Origin: Pseudomonadota bacterium
Lineage (GTDB): Bacteria; Bdellovibrionota; Bacteriovoracia; Bacteriovoracales; Bacteriovoracaceae
DNA: 64,000 nt
Assembly: GCA_027487685.1 (NCBI GenBank)
Contig: JAIYDC010000032.1
Location: forward strand, 1 to 64,000
Reading direction: 5' to 3'
Under the pieces are notes generated by a model. It ran no database searches. It saw only the letters and a list, made by a program, of their open reading frames with translations, and was not told where the DNA came from. Numbering within the stretch: the first letter of the stretch is position 1; the number at the start of each line of letters is the position of its first letter. This document shows positions 15,088 to 23,519 of the stretch, piece after piece. Both the position numbers and the translations under genes were made by a program.

Positions 15088-16443
15088 ATGAAGTTTCTCC
15101 TTCCGCTACTCCTGACCCCGTTTCTCTTAAACGGTTGCGCCTCTCTTAAAAAAGAACAAAACCTAGCTGACAGCATAAAGTTGGACGTTGAGGAACTTAA
15201 ACTTGCCAATGGAATGACTGCGCTGATCGTGAACCAACCGAAGCTTCCCATCTTCTCCCTCTATTTCTTCTATAAAGTCGGTGGAAAGAACGAAACCCCT
15301 GGTATCACCGGTGCTTCGCACTTCCTTGAACACATGATGTTTAAAGGAGCGAAGAAGTTTGGAAAGAACAGCATCGATTTTATCATCGAGGGCTCTGGTG
15401 GTTCGACCAATGCCTATACGACCAATGATTCGACTGTCTACTACGAGAACCTTCCGGCCAAGGAACTCGGCATGATCCTGGATATCGAGGCCGACCGCAT
15501 GGAGAACCTGGGCCTTGACCCTGATGACTTCAACAAGGAGCGAGCCGTAGTCCTTGAAGAGCGGAAAATGCGCTATGAGAACTCGCCCCGGGGCCAGCTC
15601 TACCAGCTCCTCATGCAAAACCTCTTTGCTGGGACTCCGTATGGTCGCCCAGTCATTGGAGAAATTCCTGACCTAAAGTCGGTGACACGCGAACAGATCC
15701 ACACTTACTTCAAGCGCTTCTACGCTCCTAATAATGTTACCTTGGTTGTTGTCGGAGACGTCAATTCGACCGCAGCAAGAAAGATGATTGAGGAAAAGTT
15801 TGGACGTATCCCAGCTTCTCCTTCAGTCAACGAGGCCCATGCCTCCCTTAAGGACGCTGATTTCGCTGTCAGTTCGACGGTATCAAAGGTGGTTGCGCAG
15901 AAAGGTGAGTCGCCGAGCCCACTTTTTATGATGGCCTATCCCACCTATAAGGCCGGTCACCCCAAGGGCTACGCTCTAGATATTCTCTCGTCGATCCTCG
16001 GGGCCGGGAAGAGCTCCACACTTTTGAACGAGTACATCCTCATCCCTAAACCTATTGCTACATCGATGTACGCGGCCCATCAGCAGCTCGAGAAGGCGGG
16101 CTTTTTCTTTATTGGCGGTGAACTCGTCCGCGGTGTTGGCCTTGATGGCTTCCGTGCGGATGTTTCACGAAAGCTCACTGCATGGTGCGATTCGGAAGTC
16201 ACCCCACGGAATCTCCAGAAGATCAAAAACAACTACCTCGTCGACCTTTATGGTGGCCTTGATACAAACGCGGGACTGGCCCAGTTCTTGGGGGACAGAC
16301 AGATGCTCTTCGGGGATTGGCGGCACTATAAAAAAGAACTCGAACTCTACGAGAAGGTTACGGTGAAGGACGTGAAGGATCTTTGTCTAGAAACCTTTGC
16401 GAAAAATCCGACCTTCGTCTCAGTCTGGAACCAGCACAAGTGA
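15088..16443 (+). CDS. M16 family zinc metallopeptidase, catalytic subunit, lipoprotein
   Basis: A 451-aa pitrilysin/processing-peptidase-like protein. Residues 1-16 plus the lipobox LNGC (Cys17) mark it as a lipoprotein. The inverted zinc motif HFLEH is at residues 78-82, and the distal Glu lies in the ERAVVLEERKMR helix about 75 residues later. The C-terminal half is the usual M16 substrate-clamp domain. GAGGA is eight bases upstream. The next gene encodes a second M16 protein lacking the zinc site, so the pair should form a heterodimer of active and inactive halves. Likely role: degrading peptides in the periplasm or at the cell surface. Confidence 0.92.
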   Translation: MKFLLPLLLTPFLLNGCASLKKEQNLADSIKLDVEELKLANGMTALIVNQPKLPIFSLYFFYKVGGKNETPGITGASHFLEHMMFKGAKKFGKNSIDFIIEGSGGSTNAYTTNDSTVYYENLPAKELGMILDIEADRMENLGLDPDDFNKERAVVLEERKMRYENSPRGQLYQLLMQNLFAGTPYGRPVIGEIPDLKSVTREQIHTYFKRFYAPNNVTLVVVGDVNSTAARKMIEEKFGRIPASPSVNEAHASLKDADFAVSSTVSKVVAQKGESPSPLFMMAYPTYKAGHPKGYALDILSSILGAGKSSTLLNEYILIPKPIATSMYAAHQQLEKAGFFFIGGELVRGVGLDGFRADVSRKLTAWCDSEVTPRNLQKIKNNYLVDLYGGLDTNAGLAQFLGDRQMLFGDWRHYKKELELYEKVTVKDVKDLCLETFAKNPTFVSVWNQHK

Positions 16444-16451
16444 GAATAACC

Positions 16452-17813
16452 ATGATGCAATTGCTATTCTTAAGCCTCTTCGCCTTTGTTCCTGCCTTTG
16501 CAGGTACGAGTTTCCTAGACGCCGTTGAGCGGCAGAGCTGGGACCTTGGTAAAGAGAAACTCGAAGTAGTATGGATCGAGGATGATAAGTTCCCGAAGTT
16601 CACGGCTTCATTTTATTTCCAAGATGGGGCCCTGAATGACTCTGTCCCTGGATTAACCCAGTTTACTTTTGATCAACTAACTTCAGGCACAGGCCAGGAG
16701 ACCCAGAGAGAGCTCGCTGAGTTTTTTGACTTCTATGGTGCAAACCTACGCCATACGGTGACCCACGAGTACTCGGTTTTTACGGTTCAGGCCTTGACGA
16801 AAGATATTGCTCCTGTCATGGGAAAGGTCTGTCAGCTATTTAAAGATGCCCAGTATCCCCAGAACGAGCTCGACTCGCACACCAGTCGTGCTAAGAGTCA
16901 CCTGAAGAATCTTGTAACATCTCACGCGGCCCTCGCCGATAGGATTTTCCGTAAGGTTTCCCTCAGCGGCACCCCCTATGCGGAACCAGTAGAAGGAACT
17001 CTCGCAAGCTATGACAAAATTACCCGAAAGCTCCTTCGTGAGCGCCTGGGTGCTTTGAACCGCACGAAAAAGGTTCTTTATCTAGCAGGGCCCCGGGATG
17101 TGAAGGAGATGCAAAAAGTCCTCGCGGCAGAATGCGAATGGAACAACGAGGTTAAAGTTAACCCACCGGTGCTGCGGAAGCCGGAAGCCCAGTCTACTAT
17201 CTATCTTGTCCACGTGCCACAGGCCAATCAGGCCCAGATCAGGATCGGCCGTTACCTCATTAAGGATGAGTTCATTGGCAAATATGACCAGTACCAGTTC
17301 ATGTCAACTTTCCTCGGAGGTGGTTTCACCTCGAAGCTAGTTCAGGAACTCAGAGTGAAGCGAGGTCTTACTTATTCTGCAGGTGCCTACGTTTCGATGC
17401 AGCGAGATTATGGCCGCGCCGGGATTCTCACTTTTTCTAAGAATGAGACTGCTGCGGATGCAGTAGGGATAGTCCGGGACGTCTTTGCGGATGTGGCGTC
17501 GGGGAAATTTCTCGAGAAAGAGTTCGTCCATCAGAAGAACCACCAGATCGGTGCCTACGCTTTTGGCTTTGAGGAGACTGGCGCATTTTTAGGTCAACTC
17601 ATGCTCTACGATCATCAGAATCGCGACCTCGCTGAGCTAGTCCGCTTTCCGGAAACCATTGGGCGTCTTACAATGCCTGAGCTCGCTCGGGCAACGATGG
17701 AAACCTTCCCTTGGGAACGGCAGACGATCGTCATTGTGGGAGATCAGGAGCTCCAAAAAAGCCTCTCCCGCATCCGTCCGGTTCGGGTTGTAGGCTATGA
17801 GGACTTCCTATAA
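16452..17813 (+). CDS. M16 family non-catalytic partner, secreted
   Basis: A roughly 453-aa M16-fold protein whose zinc motif is lost: the expected HxxEH position reads QFTFDQ. It keeps the partner-domain signature GGGFTSKLVQELRVKRGLTYS, whose Arg and Tyr contribute to substrate binding in M16B enzymes. Residues 1-18 form a signal peptide (MMQLLFLSLFAFVPAFA). The start at 16452 lies eight bases after the previous stop; an earlier in-frame start within the upstream gene would spoil the signal peptide. It should complement the active subunit encoded immediately upstream. The ribosome binding site is weak (GAGA), consistent with translational coupling. Confidence 0.88.
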   Translation: MMQLLFLSLFAFVPAFAGTSFLDAVERQSWDLGKEKLEVVWIEDDKFPKFTASFYFQDGALNDSVPGLTQFTFDQLTSGTGQETQRELAEFFDFYGANLRHTVTHEYSVFTVQALTKDIAPVMGKVCQLFKDAQYPQNELDSHTSRAKSHLKNLVTSHAALADRIFRKVSLSGTPYAEPVEGTLASYDKITRKLLRERLGALNRTKKVLYLAGPRDVKEMQKVLAAECEWNNEVKVNPPVLRKPEAQSTIYLVHVPQANQAQIRIGRYLIKDEFIGKYDQYQFMSTFLGGGFTSKLVQELRVKRGLTYSAGAYVSMQRDYGRAGILTFSKNETAADAVGIVRDVFADVASGKFLEKEFVHQKNHQIGAYAFGFEETGAFLGQLMLYDHQNRDLAELVRFPETIGRLTMPELARATMETFPWERQTIVIVGDQELQKSLSRIRPVRVVGYEDFL

Positions 17814-17842
17814 TTCAACTATTTGATCTACGGGTCTCTGGA

Positions 17843-18196
17843 CTAGGTCGATTCCTGACAGTTTGCCTGCATCTCGACCACGGCACCGGGGTAGATGACG
17901 AGCCGATCTGAGCGGATGATGCCTTCAACCCGAGCACTCGAACGGATGGCGACGAGGCCTGAGCATTCGATTTCTCCCACGACGGTGCCAAAGACTTCGA
18001 GGTCCACAGCGCTGATCTTTCCAGTCACTACGCTTCCTCGCTCGAGCACCAACTTTCCCGTGCCTTGGACCACGATGCTGCCTTCAACGCAAGCGTTGAC
18101 GATACTGTCACCGGCCAAAAAAAGGTCTCCGAGGATCCGAGTTTTTGCACCAAGAACATTGTAATTGAATTCCTTGAAGTCCCGGTCGTCGATCAT
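17843..18196 (-). CDS. Bactofilin
   Basis: A 117-aa polymer-forming cytoskeletal protein (DUF583). The core is a run of short beta-helix turns: TRILGDLFLAGD, ACVEGSIVVQG, GSVVTGKISA, GTVVGEIE, ARVEGIIRSD, each ending in the G-x-I/V pattern of right-handed beta helices. It has short polar ends and no membrane segment. Bactofilins polymerise without nucleotide and recruit envelope-building enzymes. The start overlaps the stop of the upstream membrane protein (ATGA), and an L,D-transpeptidase heads the operon, so a role in local peptidoglycan modification is likely. Confidence 0.92.
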   Translation of the reverse strand: MIDDRDFKEFNYNVLGAKTRILGDLFLAGDSIVNACVEGSIVVQGTGKLVLERGSVVTGKISAVDLEVFGTVVGEIECSGLVAIRSSARVEGIIRSDRLVIYPGAVVEMQANCQEST

Positions 18197-18936
18197 GATT
18201 TTAGTCCAATGGAGTACGTCTCCGTCTCTTTAATAAGGAGAAGGTCACCCTCACGGCTGAAGATGTAGATCAGGAACCGAACGGACTCCCCGGATGGTTT
18301 CTGCGAAAACAATGCATTTGTCGGTCGGAGCCGAGAGACGGCGAAGGGTTCTCCCATAGAGTATTTGATGCCGGTTAAGGAGGCGGCGTTTGCTTCAGCA
18401 GGATAGGCGCTTACACCTGCATCAGAGATCATAAAGACGAGAACATGCCCACTAACTTTCGTCTCGGAATTTGAGCTGATAATCTGAAACTTCAAAAGTG
18501 CTGTCTTGGCATCAGGAACAAACTCGAACTGGTCCAGGGTGACTTTGTTTTGCGCTATCAGGTTTTGCATACCGTAGGGCTTTTTAATCAGGAGAAGATA
18601 AGGGTCTTCGGCCGCAGTGGTGGTAGGTGCCGAGGAGAGGCGTTCGGCCAACGCTTCATTTGTGGCCTTCAGCGACTCGATTTCAGTTTCCAGGGAACTC
18701 ATACGGTTTTCAGATTCCAAGATGACCTTGGGAAGAGTTGGAGAGGGAGTATCCTTAAGGCGACTTCCAAGGCCCCACAGAAAGAGCAGGAGCAAGAGAC
18801 TCATCAGAAGCAGAGGGACGACGACGAAAGTGCTCCGGATAAATCGCTTCGTTAAGCGAAAGTACTTGGGAGGAAGTGGAGCATCGTAAATGATGATTGC
18901 AATTTCTTCGGCGTTTCGCTGGATCAATTCTTTCAT
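18193..18936 (-). CDS. Single-pass membrane coiled-coil protein, bactofilin operon
   Basis: A 247-aa inner-membrane protein. Residues 1-35 are cytoplasmic, and residues 36-56 form a strong Leu-rich transmembrane helix. A short coiled coil follows (residues 75-105, LETEIESLKATNEALAERL). The periplasmic C-terminal domain of about 130 residues looks beta-rich. This topology resembles the M23 endopeptidases (LmdC type) often found beside bactofilins, but no zinc motif is present and I do not recognise the domain. It may be the membrane link between the bactofilin and the wall enzyme. It lies three bases after the L,D-transpeptidase stop. Confidence 0.8.
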   Translation of the reverse strand: MKELIQRNAEEIAIIIYDAPLPPKYFRLTKRFIRSTFVVVPLLLMSLLLLLFLWGLGSRLKDTPSPTLPKVILESENRMSSLETEIESLKATNEALAERLSSAPTTTAAEDPYLLLIKKPYGMQNLIAQNKVTLDQFEFVPDAKTALLKFQIISSNSETKVSGHVLVFMISDAGVSAYPAEANAASLTGIKYSMGEPFAVSRLRPTNALFSQKPSGESVRFLIYIFSREGDLLLIKETETYSIGLKS

Positions 18937-18939
18937 TCC

Positions 18940-19920
18940 CTATTCTCTGAAAAAGCGCTTCGAGGGCGAGAATGCGAGTTTACCATCCTCCACTTTTGAC
19001 CAAACCTCACCTACGATCTTCCAGTCGTAATTCCGGTCTTTTTCAAGGTAAAGAGTTTTCTTCCCGATGTCGTTGATCACCGTTGAGCGGTAGTCCTGTT
19101 GGAGGTTTACAACGGCGTAGCTATCTGTGGCGAAGATAGAGATAAAATCGAGCTTGATTTTTGGCCCATCGGGACGGGAGAAGACTGCTTTTTTATAGGT
19201 CTTGTAGCCACTAAAGTTCCCGTGTTTTTTGTCACGGAACTTACTTTGGTCATAGCTGGCGATGTAGTTGTCAAAGTCCTTCGACTGCCACGCTTTAGAC
19301 CAGGCCTGAATGGTGTCGTTGATGTCTTTACGATTCCGCTCCCAAGTTGACTTGGATAGGTAGAATACATCTTGAACGACGATGATGGGGGTGTGGTTGA
19401 GTTCGATGTATTCTGAGATGTCCCTTAGATCCTGGTTTTGGACGACAACGCAACCCCGGGAATCAAGCCCTTTGGAAATGCGGTTATCGTCGTCGGTCGA
19501 GTGAAGCCAGATGCCGCCCCCACTCTTGCCTTCGCGTTGGTCAATGAAATTCGGATAGTCCATCGGAAATGCGCCGGAGCCATAGATTTCAGCATACTTA
19601 CCGTGGCGCCTGAGGAGTTCTTGTTTTGAAAGAAATTCATAAATAGTGTAGATGCCCTCAGGAGTCTTATGGTCTCCGCTCGAAGATTTATCTCCCTTAA
19701 GCTTTCCCGTCGCAGTGTTAAAAGTCTTTACGAGGCGTGGGACAGTGTTAGTATTCTCGTAGAGATGGAGCTTGTGGGTGGCCTTCTCGACAAGGATCAC
19801 GTGATGTGAAAACTTTTGATCCATCATGAGGATGTTTGACGGAAGGTAATTGTCCTGAGCGCGGACAAGGCCGACGAAAATTGTCAGAAGTAGACAGCAG
19901 ATAAACCTAAAAGTTTTCAA
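18940..19920 (-). CDS. L,D-transpeptidase with NTF2-like C-terminal domain
   Basis: A 326-aa exported cell-wall enzyme of the Cds6-like group. The best start is the TTG at 19920, which has GGAGG four bases upstream and gives an N-terminus (KTFRFICCLLLTIFVG) that is a good signal peptide. The YkuD domain spans roughly residues 40-200 with the catalytic block SRGCVVV preceded by WLHS about 20 residues earlier (His and Cys present). The last 115 residues form a SnoaL/NTF2-like domain ending in YDWKIVGEVWSK. It would form 3-3 crosslinks or attach proteins to peptidoglycan. It is first in the operon with the membrane protein and bactofilin. Confidence 0.88.
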   Translation of the reverse strand: MKTFRFICCLLLTIFVGLVRAQDNYLPSNILMMDQKFSHHVILVEKATHKLHLYENTNTVPRLVKTFNTATGKLKGDKSSSGDHKTPEGIYTIYEFLSKQELLRRHGKYAEIYGSGAFPMDYPNFIDQREGKSGGGIWLHSTDDDNRISKGLDSRGCVVVQNQDLRDISEYIELNHTPIIVVQDVFYLSKSTWERNRKDINDTIQAWSKAWQSKDFDNYIASYDQSKFRDKKHGNFSGYKTYKKAVFSRPDGPKIKLDFISIFATDSYAVVNLQQDYRSTVINDIGKKTLYLEKDRNYDWKIVGEVWSKVEDGKLAFSPSKRFFRE

Positions 19921-20090
19921 ATATCCTCCGTGAGATTTCTCGATTGTATTATGAGGGCTTAAGGGAATCAATAAAGATATCCATCAGATGCCGATGAACT
20001 CACCTGAGTAAACCTGACAACCGTTTTTTTTCTTCATTCATTTCATCATTGTAACGACAAGACTTAAGAACATAATACCCGGACGTACGA

Positions 20091-21710
20091 ATGAAGACTA
20101 ACCAATCGGGCATTTCACCTCTTGGGGCCTTGAAAGACTCAGCTGTCAGTGGCCAGATGGATGAAGTGTTCCGGAGTGTAATCAAGGACAAAGCTATGTC
20201 GACAAAATCCGCCCAGATCCCAGCTAATCCTGGACACGGGGAAATTGCCCTCGAGGATGCCGGTGAACTCGACATCGGTCTTGTTGTTCCAGAAGTAACT
20301 TCTTCGGGAATGGCGATTGATCAAGGTATGGACCTTGCTGTCGTCTCCGGAAATGAACTCGATATCGGTGAACTGGACGAGGGGTTTAATGCGGATTCCC
20401 CCTCAGATGACCACTACGGGGACCTCTCTCTGGATGGGGCAGATGAAGCTGTTCTCGCAGATGATGAGGTTGATCCCGACGAGCGAACAGTGGTTAAATC
20501 CCTTGGTCAGTCTCTGAGGCCATCGGTTTCTTCGGATGGATCTTCTAATGAGCTAACTATGGGTGCGTTCAATCTCGTAGAAAATGATGCGGATACGGAT
20601 CTTGGAGAAGAGGGCGGGCCAATGGATCTTGGAGACACCGAGGCATCCCCAGAAATCGGGATCGAAAGTGATGATGGGCAGGATCTTGGTCTGGACCTAG
20701 ATCCAGTGGGCCCCCCTTCGGCCGAGCTGACCTTAGGCAGCATGAGTCTTGGCGATGACCTCTCCGACGAAGCCAAGAAAAAACTTGAAGAGATCGATGC
20801 GATCATGGATTTTGACGCCTCACAGGTAAACTTGTCACCTGAACCTGAACCTGAACTGCTTGAGCAGAGCTTTGAGAGCGACTTTAGTCTAGATATGGGA
20901 AGCGACCTAGATGAATCATTAGTTCCTTCGGACCTAGCAGTGGATTCCCTTAACTTCGAAACAGCACTTGAGAAAGGGCCAGAGGAAGTGGTCCCCTCGC
21001 CACCCCCGAAAGAGTCTCGTCAGAAAAAGATGCCTGAACATCGAGAGACTCGTGATCGGAATCTTGGTGAGGACCTGCGCGAACTCTCCGGCGCCTATTC
21101 GGGTGAGATGGAACGGATGCAGGCGACGATTTCGAATCTCAGGACTGATCGCGATGAGCTTCTGACCAGGATCAAGACACTCGAGGAAGAAAAGGTCCTC
21201 GAGAAGCGGCTTACCCTGACTTTGAGAGCGGAACTCGATGAGCGAAAGATCGAGCTAACGATAATTCGTAAGAAGCTCAACGAGGAGATTGGGGACCTGA
21301 AAGACAGACTTAAACTTTACGACGAGAAACGGCTGATCCTCGAGGAGCGCAATCGGGTCTTGCACGGGGAGCTTGATAAAGCGGCGCAAAAGACTAAAAT
21401 TGATGTTAAGAAGATCCAACTCCGGGAGCGGGAGCTCGAGCAGAAGCTCGAACTCCTTAAGTCCGACGCGGAGACTCAGATACGAAACCGAGACCTTAAG
21501 CTCCTTGAGCTTAAGCGCAAGATTGATTCAATGGAGTTTGACATGGAATCTATATCACAGCAGGAAAAGCGCTCGGTCGAGTCCCGATTCGAGCTTGAAG
21601 ATAAGTTGGAGAAAGCGGTCAAGACCCTTAGGTCGGCCATCACCGTGCTTGAGGAGGATACCGATCGGTCGGGCGTCCTGAGCGCGCTCAAGAAGAACAT
21701 AGACATGTAA
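20091..21710 (+). CDS. Acidic repeat and coiled-coil protein
   Basis: A 539-aa cytoplasmic protein in two parts. Residues 40-300 are highly acidic and disordered, with recurring short motifs: ELDIG twice, ELTMGAFNL and ELTLGSMSL, and several DLG units. Residues 330-535 are a nearly continuous coiled coil (DELLTRIKTLEEEKVLEKR onward). This resembles the layout of scaffold proteins in polarity and motility systems of Myxococcus-type bacteria, but no orthology is claimed. The start is uncertain: the ATG at 20091 has no clear ribosome binding site, while the ATG at 20196 has AAGGA seven bases upstream. Its stop overlaps the next ATG (TAATG), coupling it to a GGDEF protein. Confidence 0.78.
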   Translation: MKTNQSGISPLGALKDSAVSGQMDEVFRSVIKDKAMSTKSAQIPANPGHGEIALEDAGELDIGLVVPEVTSSGMAIDQGMDLAVVSGNELDIGELDEGFNADSPSDDHYGDLSLDGADEAVLADDEVDPDERTVVKSLGQSLRPSVSSDGSSNELTMGAFNLVENDADTDLGEEGGPMDLGDTEASPEIGIESDDGQDLGLDLDPVGPPSAELTLGSMSLGDDLSDEAKKKLEEIDAIMDFDASQVNLSPEPEPELLEQSFESDFSLDMGSDLDESLVPSDLAVDSLNFETALEKGPEEVVPSPPPKESRQKKMPEHRETRDRNLGEDLRELSGAYSGEMERMQATISNLRTDRDELLTRIKTLEEEKVLEKRLTLTLRAELDERKIELTIIRKKLNEEIGDLKDRLKLYDEKRLILEERNRVLHGELDKAAQKTKIDVKKIQLRERELEQKLELLKSDAETQIRNRDLKLLELKRKIDSMEFDMESISQQEKRSVESRFELEDKLEKAVKTLRSAITVLEEDTDRSGVLSALKKNIDM

Positions 21711-23047
21711 TGCAAAAGCTATCTGACGTTCTCGAACTTCTCGCTATCGGTCTCGACTCGTTCTCCATCGAGGCGATAAAGAAGTCGTTGCGTGAAAATA
21801 AGCTTAAGTACCGCATCAGTTTTCTTCAAGATATTTCTGACCTTGATGGTTTCAACAGGAAGACCGCCCAGGCCGTCTTTTTTTTCTCAAACCGGCAAAG
21901 CCAGAAGACGATAGACGACATCCGAAAGATCCACCAGTTAGTCCCTGGGGCAGGCATCACGCTCTTGTCGCCACGCTCAGAGCATCAGGGTATTATCGGC
22001 GCCTTTCGTGCAGGCCTTTTTGACTTCCTGACACTCCCGCTTGACCCGAGCGAAATTCGGACTGTTATTTATCGACTTAAAATTCACGGCGCGATTCAGA
22101 GTACTGACTGGAGTCCGGAACGAGCGGTGCTGCATCTCTTCTCCCGGCCTGAGAGCTTTGGCTCTATCAGTGATGTGGCGCGGGCGCTGAATCAATACCT
22201 CCTGAAATTTTTTAACATCGAGAAAGAAATCACCTTCCGTGATAGTGACCGCGCACTCATCTCAATGAGTAGGCGGCTCAGGCTATCCGAGCATCAACTG
22301 AAGCGTATCCGAAGATTCCTCGCAGATGAGACGGGACTGATTTTTGGCCTTCGATTCCTGCGTGGTCGCTTCTACTTCTTGATTAAGCGCGGAGATGGAA
22401 AGTTTTCTTACCTCGTGGCAAGAAACATATCTGACTACTCGATCAAAGATGTCCTCTCAAGCTATCTTTCGAATATCCTAAAAACGACTCTGACTATCCT
22501 TACGGAGTCGAAGACCCGTGAAGAGATGCGTCTTCTCTCACTTACCGATGAGGTCACAGGTCTTTATAATCAACGCAAACTGATTGAAGATCTTGAACTT
22601 TACACTGGCCGTTACGTTCACGACCAGGCCGGCTTCACCTTACTCTTTGTGGACATTGACTACTTTAAAAACGTCAACGATCAGTATGGTCATGTTGTCG
22701 GCTCACAGCTCTTGGTCGACATGGCAACGATCCTCAAAGGACAACTCCGGTCATCAGATCTCGTTTATCGTTACGGTGGCGACGAGTTTATCGTTCTCCT
22801 GCCACGTTCGAGCGTCGATGAGTCAAAGAGGATTGCCCTTCGAATCTCTGAAGCGGTAAAGACAACTGAGTTTAATGTTTTGGGATCTGACACCAAATAT
22901 CACCTTTCTTTGTCCATCGGTGTCGCACAGTTCCCCCTGGATGCCACGAGTGTGAAGGGCCTTATCGAGTTCGCAGATAGGATGATGTACATGTCGAAGA
23001 AATCGGGGCGTGGGAAAGTCTTTCACATCAATGAAGTCGTTGCCTAG
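21710..23047 (+). CDS. Diguanylate cyclase with pseudo-receiver domain
   Basis: A 445-aa protein predicted to make cyclic di-GMP. Residues 8-125 have the receiver fold, but the phosphoacceptor Asp position reads VFFFSN and the conserved Lys-Pro near strand 5 is LP (DFLTLPLDP), so it cannot be phosphorylated in the usual way. A middle region of about 150 residues is unassigned. The GGDEF domain (about 270-440) is intact: YGGDEF near residue 356, with the RSSD inhibitory I-site five residues before it, so product inhibition is expected. Stop/start coupling to the acidic coiled-coil gene suggests the two act together, perhaps with the scaffold positioning the cyclase. Confidence 0.9.
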   Translation: MQKLSDVLELLAIGLDSFSIEAIKKSLRENKLKYRISFLQDISDLDGFNRKTAQAVFFFSNRQSQKTIDDIRKIHQLVPGAGITLLSPRSEHQGIIGAFRAGLFDFLTLPLDPSEIRTVIYRLKIHGAIQSTDWSPERAVLHLFSRPESFGSISDVARALNQYLLKFFNIEKEITFRDSDRALISMSRRLRLSEHQLKRIRRFLADETGLIFGLRFLRGRFYFLIKRGDGKFSYLVARNISDYSIKDVLSSYLSNILKTTLTILTESKTREEMRLLSLTDEVTGLYNQRKLIEDLELYTGRYVHDQAGFTLLFVDIDYFKNVNDQYGHVVGSQLLVDMATILKGQLRSSDLVYRYGGDEFIVLLPRSSVDESKRIALRISEAVKTTEFNVLGSDTKYHLSLSIGVAQFPLDATSVKGLIEFADRMMYMSKKSGRGKVFHINEVVA

Positions 23048-23087: not shown

Positions 23088-23519
23088 CTATTTTTTTGTG
23101 GTGGCTTTTTTTGTTGCTCGAGGTTTTGCAGGCACCTTCTTTGTCGTTACCTTGGTGACCTTTTTTCGGGTCGCTGGGGTTTGGATTTTTGGGTCCTCAG
23201 CGTGACGCTTCTCTTTCAGCTTTGCCGTCGCCTTCACAAGAGTGTCGAGTTTCTCCTGAAGGGCCTTAAACTCTTTCTTCTGGGCCTTGAGGAACTTTCG
23301 TGCCTTCCCCTCTAAATCTTCTTTTTCTTTTTTTAGCCGCTTCCTGACCGCATCAACATCTTTATCTACGAGTCGGTTGAAGTCCTCCTGTGCGTCTTTC
23401 ACGAGAAGGTTGATGCTCGCCTTCAAATCTCCAACGTTAACGTCTGAGATGAAAGTCTCGATGTTCGCTTTGATTTTGTTGATCTTGCCGATAACCTTGT
23501 TTTTAGTTTCTTCGCTCAT
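23088..23519 (-). CDS. Lys-rich histone H1-like / coiled-coil protein
   Basis: A 143-aa basic protein. Residues 1-95 are charged helices, probably coiled coil (VRKRLKKEKEDLEGKARKFL). Residues 110-143 form a Lys/Thr/Pro/Ala tail (KKVTKVTTKKVPAKPRATKK) resembling histone H1 and bacterial AlgP/HC1-type tails. Such tails bind DNA non-specifically, so a nucleoid-compaction role is plausible but not shown. GGAGG precedes the ATG at 23519. It lies 14 bases downstream of the NAD synthetase stop on the same strand, and its own strong terminator follows. Confidence 0.78.
   Translation of the reverse strand: MSEETKNKVIGKINKIKANIETFISDVNVGDLKASINLLVKDAQEDFNRLVDKDVDAVRKRLKKEKEDLEGKARKFLKAQKKEFKALQEKLDTLVKATAKLKEKRHAEDPKIQTPATRKKVTKVTTKKVPAKPRATKKATTKK

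Follow-up and report, generated by a model that had tools for sequence, protein, structure and literature searches.

Two overlapping genes in the window, as we term the whole 64,000-nucleotide stretch of DNA that was analyzed, probably encode a two-gene module (probability of about 0.6) in which a Bd0739-family polar scaffold would gather a cotranslated Hypr GGDEF synthase at the cell pole, where the synthase would make mostly cGAMP. The first gene (20091..21710; this and all following coordinates are on the + strand unless stated otherwise) was identified from the ORF list and a family profile and encodes the 539-residue scaffold, composed of an acidic N-terminal part and a coiled coil. The second gene (21710..23047) encodes a 445-residue GGDEF protein with the Hypr signature, as judged from the ORF list, Pfam, AlphaFold2, signature residues, and tree. 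The two genes share a single base in a TAATG overlap (21708..21712), with the stop codon TAA at 21708-21710 and the start codon ATG at 21710-21712, as an earlier note on this DNA had described.

The acidic character of the scaffold is pronounced. By composition count, residues 1 to 321 contain 24% Asp plus Glu (77 residues) and 6% Lys plus Arg (19 residues). The coiled-coil core spans residues ∼333 to 525 (21087..21665; heptad score and profile) and is the portion of the scaffold that is kept phylum-wide. The coiled coil was judged by heptad score against 300 shuffles and by proline absence, without a dedicated coiled-coil predictor; the heptad order of residues 333 to 525 scored above all 300 shuffles, and the segment contains no proline. 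The composition, shuffle, and heptad tests thus agree with the acidic part, repeats, and coiled coil that the earlier note had assigned to the first protein. The named relatives that match the scaffold best come from assemblies of Bacteriovoracaceae (phylum Bdellovibrionota), the family to which the window belongs, and the nearest is 95% identical over the coil.

The acidic part carries two copies of ELDIG (residues 59 to 63, 20265..20279, and residues 89 to 93, 20355..20369) and two matches to ELT-x-G-x-x-x-L, ELTMGAFNL (residues 154 to 162, 20550..20576) and ELTLGSMSL (residues 212 to 220, 20724..20750), all of which belong to a looser acidic-leucine repeat type. The loose pattern [DE][LIMF][SDTNEA][LIFVM][GDESN] occurs 8 times in the window scaffold compared to 0.85 (maximum 5) in shuffles, and 189 times in 24 N-terminal regions from the genus compared to 34 (maximum 50). 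Because these counts top the shuffled maxima, the repeats exceed chance. Exact ELDIG, however, was present in only 2 of the 24 genus N-regions, those of the window and its nearest relative. The ELDIG and ELT motifs are therefore poor candidates for the docking role once suggested for them, as they are not conserved. The motifs that recur in relatives are instead QMDEVF (residues 22 to 27, 20154..20171), DESLVPSD (residues 274 to 281, 20910..20933), and KLEEIDAIM (residues 231 to 239, 20781..20807), the commonest conserved motif of the acidic part; indeed, KLxEIDxIM is the commonest recurring motif type of the acidic N-regions. In a related scaffold (locus L089), the N-terminal part carries near-tandem ALDLGSDDS repeats, which indicates fast turnover of the acidic part.

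A phosphothreonine motif, D/E-K/R-T-x-x-hydrophobic, was considered for the window scaffold and rejected, since it occurs in 0 of 24 members of the genus and the DERTVVK of the window protein does not fit it. In the scaffolds of other families, this motif occurs 27 times compared to 0.9 in shuffles. It is present in 19 of 68 proteins and is associated with linkage to DgcB (12 of 28 compared to 4 of 33; Fisher p 0.009, uncorrected for kinship). Scaffold peptides from families with a linked DgcB, such as EDKTVSI and the ADKTVAV of strain HD100, resemble the EKTSIV around Thr14 of DgcB (for example, L210:8625-9971). This resemblance points to a possible role of the scaffold as an FHA ligand in families with a linked FHA-type DgcB.

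In the cyclase, Pfam identified GGDEF alone (residues 278 to 435, 22541..23014), and no Response_reg match was found by Pfam in the 445 residues. The AlphaFold2 model (19-row alignment; mean pLDDT of 84.8, pTM of 0.56) nevertheless shows a (beta-alpha)5 receiver fold at residues 7 to 126 (21728..22087), and profile comparison relates this segment to the true receivers of orthologous cyclases (97.9%, E of 6e-13) and to the DgcA receiver (87.5%). In the alignment, Ser60 stands at the position of the phosphoacceptor Asp, Gly14-Leu15 at the acidic pair, and Leu109 at the Lys. The catalytic residues are replaced, not displaced, and the segment is thus best described, from alignment and model, as a predicted pseudo-receiver that would be nonphosphorylatable. 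The AlphaFold2 model shows an alpha/beta fold at residues ∼136 to 240, within a middle domain delimited as residues 129 to 250 (22094..22459), and a long helix at residues 251 to 277 (22460..22540), preceding the catalytic domain. The middle domain, which is kept in genera that have no pseudo-receiver, had no Pfam family match and received no assignment from the solved-fold comparison. Both the I-site, RSSD at residues 347 to 350 (Arg347 and Asp350; 22748..22759), and the GGDEF motif at residues 356 to 360 (Asp358; 22775..22789) are intact. The earlier note's description of a receiver lacking the Asp and Lys joined to an intact GGDEF domain and I-site holds, and no displacement of the receiver residues was seen in the alignment. 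The closest solved fold is 6d9m, a Geobacter GGDEF domain that we take to be that of GacA (Z of 26.3, rmsd of 1.9 Å over 169 aligned residues, 37% identity); it shares the top rank with several others, as the top rows lie within 1 in Z.

The Hypr signature comprises a Ser or Thr where PleD has Asp344, a residue other than Arg at the cross-dimer position, and a GGD motif (PMC9140294, PMC6456294). The window cyclase has all three: Ser332 (22703..22705) aligns with PleD Asp344 and Bd0367 Ser214 (PMC9140294), Gln288 (22571..22573) occupies the cross-dimer position that is Arg in canonical diguanylate cyclases and Tyr304 in GacA (PMC6456294), and the motif is GGDEF, not GGEEF. Hypr enzymes, which are put at 0.17% of GGDEF domains (PMC9140294), are reported to make predominantly cGAMP when Tyr, Ser, Ala, or Gln is at the cross-dimer position (PMC6456294), and are described as promiscuous, making cyclic di-GMP too (PMC9140294). 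Judged by these residues, the window cyclase probably makes cGAMP alongside cyclic di-GMP or in excess of it. The signature extends to the cyclases that adjoin scaffold genes elsewhere: among 72 of these linked cyclases, the specificity position is Ser or Thr in 67, Gly in 2, Asn in 2, and Asp in 1; the cross-dimer position is Gln in 50 and Arg or Lys in none; and all 72 have the GGD motif. By comparison, 35 DgcB-like cyclases have Asp at the specificity position (35 of 35; Ser or Thr in 0 of 35) and Lys or Arg at the cross-dimer position (35 of 35). The window genome encodes two GGDEF proteins, although its assembly is fragmented (149 contigs) and a third gene could be missing; the second, on contig C9, is FHA-GGDEF by Pfam, with a GGEEF motif, and is the DgcB counterpart. 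Eight Bacteriovoracaceae genomes (four genera) have two full GGDEF genes each, three of them with an extra weak or partial match. The c-di-GMP-I riboswitch (RF01051) was found in 0 of 18 genomes of the genus, and the 2 positives among 29 searched genomes both belong to other families.

The scaffold family proved to be widespread. The coil profile matched in 329 of 368 genomes of Bdellovibrionota and in 223 of the 234 that are at least 90% complete, and the whole first protein as query gave matches in 47 of 58 sampled genomes. The Bd0739-family scaffold is thus found across the phylum, in contrast to the published description of Bd0739 as restricted to a few species (PMC11025332). We assembled 107 scaffold loci (47 + 20 + 40), picked by scaffold match and not by cyclase, which with the window make 108. 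A GGDEF cyclase lies directly downstream of the scaffold in 72 of these, always on the same strand, with overlapping genes in 35 and a spacing within 60 nt in 37. Of the 36 genomes from the window's own family, one of which is split over two contigs, 35 have the cyclase directly downstream, as do 37 of the 71 loci from other families, so that the pair, as the synteny analysis proposed in the earlier note now shows, is linked in relatives. A second, named set of 80 loci, which overlaps the first in species, has the cyclase in all 75 cases where the contig continues, the 5 others ending within 1 kb; 74 of those 75 cyclases have Ser or Thr at the specificity position. The coupling of scaffold and cyclase is real and old. 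The remaining 36 of the 108 loci (3 with <1.5 kb of contig left), including all those of Bdellovibrio and its family, have no adjacent cyclase, and the scaffold can therefore work without it. The adjoining region (15088-19971) has two M16 peptidase genes that face those for a bactofilin, a small coil protein of the membrane, and an L,D-transpeptidase carrying a Cds6_C domain, a block kept in nearly all family loci, and a Lys-rich, histone-tail-like small protein, also kept in the family, is encoded convergently with the cyclase (23088-23519, − strand).

Phylogenetic analyses placed the linked cyclases together. A first tree of 112 GGDEF domains groups all 72 linked cyclases in a single clade (97/93), the sister of which is DgcA (Bd0367), alone on a long branch. 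A second tree adds 22 DgcA-type rows, two of which, with Asp, fall outside the DgcA clade; in it, the linked clade (thinned to 39 rows) is supported at 100/97, DgcA proper (21 rows including Bd0367) at 100/99, and the two are weakly sisters (87/58). Two genomes (G217 and G240) carry both linked and DgcA-type cyclases, which are therefore paralogues. By these trees, the linked cyclases appear to be a second Hypr family, in its own clade beside Bd0367 and not present in HD100. Orthology of the window cyclase to DgcA was rejected because it lies outside the DgcA clade in the second tree, and orthology to DgcB was rejected because Pfam identified no FHA domain in it. CdgA, considered because in it a receiver-like N-terminal part precedes a degenerate GGDEF, was also rejected: its N-terminal part showed no profile similarity to the window pseudo-receiver, and the window GGDEF is intact. 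By eye, the N terminus of HD100 CdgA (L262) is pseudo-receiver-like, without the Asp or Lys. In one Bdellovibrio species (L290, genome G169), the DgcA gene matches over residues 7 to 107 only, with a stop inside.

The HD100 genome (G154) contains a single match to the scaffold profile (2e-27), and its GGDEF complement of five proteins (one receiver-GGDEF, one FHA-GGEEF, one GVNEF, and two others) fits the published HD100 set (PMC3271064). The gene order is scaffold, calcineurin-type phosphoesterase, PGI, and FHA-GGEEF DgcB, the last three being Bd0740, Bd0741, and Bd0742 (PMC6733907, PMC8354745); counting back from these, the scaffold is Bd0739. Bd0739 was a top match of RomR proximity labeling and a direct RomR partner in a POLAR assay, and it is reported to form foci at the invasive pole of attack-phase cells and foci that colocalize with RomR when progeny exit prey (PMC11025332). 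The polar localization guessed at in the earlier note is thus borne out for the HD100 orthologue. Transposon mutants of Bd0739 are described as defective in prey attachment, killing, and rounding (PMC6561027). No receiver match was obtained in the three HD100 stretches where romR was expected. The complete order of scaffold, cyclase, phosphoesterase, PGI, and DgcB occurs at 11 loci of other families, and 9 loci have the same order minus the cyclase alone. The five-gene order indicates that the pair belongs to the ancestral dgcB operon; in the window's genus, the window included, the pair is not followed by phosphoesterase, PGI, or DgcB.

Most scaffolds of the genus start with a receiver-fold domain (pLDDT of 89.6), the solved-structure matches of which are receivers. 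Such an N-terminal pseudo-receiver is present in 40 of 103 full-length scaffold family members (model-building rows included), and both the window scaffold and Bd0739 lack it. The N-domains of the genus share a His and a Tyr ten residues apart, and His92 and Tyr102 of FrzS are reported to be essential in FrzS (PMC1974792). The N-domain had no profile match to the FrzS receiver; FrzS ranks 12 to 13 among many receivers by fold, and a PDB profile search with the N-domain returned only chance-level rows.

The history of the cyclase receiver bears on how the enzyme may be controlled. In orthologous cyclases of other families (f3, f8, and others), the receiver retains the Lys and, in most cases, the Asp; in the window's genus, it has decayed; and several other genera of Bacteriovoracaceae have no receiver domain, with the scaffold still adjacent. 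Phosphorylation-independent control fits this passage from intact to decayed to absent. The residues kept in the other families might suggest that the window receiver is still a phosphorylation switch acting through displaced residues, but we consider this highly improbable, given that neither the window nor the rest of its genus retains the Asp, the acidic pair, or the Lys, other residues having taken their places, and that other genera do without the domain. Most likely, contact of the scaffold with the N-terminal part of the cyclase, not phosphate, sets activity. The same contact would gather the cyclase at the pole; because many genera lack the pseudo-receiver, it would probably be made via the middle domain. 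The polar cyclase would then generate a local pool, mostly of cGAMP, cyclic di-GMP at the I-site would limit the enzyme, and the FHA-GGEEF protein would make cyclic di-GMP separately. Control by protein contact is plausible but unproven. Of the earlier proposal that such contact, and not phosphorylation, governs cyclic di-GMP synthesis, the independence from phosphorylation stands as fitting the receiver history, while the product is corrected to mainly cGAMP.

Several findings count against a polar cGAMP module: the scaffolds without a cyclase at 36 of 108 loci, the 5 of 72 linked cyclases without Ser or Thr, the absence of RF01051 in the genus, and the missing genus-typical N-domain of the window scaffold. 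It is possible, though we think it doubtful, that the operon is shared for expression only, with the scaffold serving RomR, pili, and DgcB and the cyclase having its own diffusible role. In Bdellovibrio and its family, the scaffold persists with no linked cyclase, and a metabolic gene, PGI, sits in the same operon; yet the adjacency outlasts changes in other neighbors and in the cyclase N-terminal domain. We judge it unlikely that the scaffold holds an ordinary cyclic di-GMP synthase at the pole and that Ser/Thr is a neutral family trait. The linked cyclases without Ser or Thr, and the cyclic di-GMP that Hypr enzymes also make (PMC9140294), would be expected of such an enzyme, but the two positions depart together, with GGD, in a phylum-spanning clade, and the tested Hypr enzymes that have Gln as the cross-dimer residue made mostly cGAMP (PMC6456294). 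Returning to the polar cGAMP module, a broader and tentative extension is that the ancestor of Bdellovibrionota already had, at its prey-facing pole, a cGAMP synthase gated by the scaffold and independent of phosphorylation. The invasion operon would then have made both messengers, cGAMP through the Hypr enzyme and cyclic di-GMP through DgcB; Bdellovibrio would have dropped the Hypr enzyme and kept its paralogue DgcA, and Bacteriovoracaceae would have kept it.

Across the phylum, the operon connects this putative second Hypr family with a RomR partner that is required for attachment to prey, and the linked cyclase would give Bd0739 an ancestral partner. The cyclic-dinucleotide economy of Bacteriovoracaceae seems to consist of two enzymes, one per messenger, so that the role of each in predation should be separable by deletion. 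Judged from listings of the open-licence literature, we found no report of a linked scaffold–cyclase Hypr enzyme, and the only studied Hypr enzyme of predatory bacteria that we found was Bd0367.

Comparison with known systems places the pair among several relatives. FrzS and AglZ of Myxococcus share with the window's relatives the arrangement of pseudo-receiver, linker, and coiled coil, and the His92/Tyr102 spacing of FrzS is like that of the relatives' His-Tyr pair, but the window scaffold differs in having lost the N-terminal pseudo-receiver. GacA of Geobacter, a Hypr enzyme (6d9m), has the GHxVGSQ motif of the window cyclase in alignment and is among its top solved folds, whereas its N-terminal domains differ (receiver plus GAF by PDB name); we know of no comparable scaffold for GacA. 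DgcA (Bd0367) of B. bacteriovorus resembles the window cyclase in its Hypr Ser, non-Arg cross-dimer residue, GGDEF, intact I-site, and N-terminal receiver-type domain, but it forms a separate clade, has a canonical receiver by Pfam, and does not adjoin the scaffold. DgcB (Bd0742), the invasion cyclase, differs in its FHA domain, Asp at the specificity position, and GGEEF, and comes from the same ancestral operon as the window cyclase. Finally, Bd0739 is shorter and less acidic than the window scaffold, and HD100 has no Hypr gene between Bd0739 and bd0740, unlike the linked pair of the window; the two scaffolds nonetheless belong to the same coiled-coil family by profile and to the same operon family.
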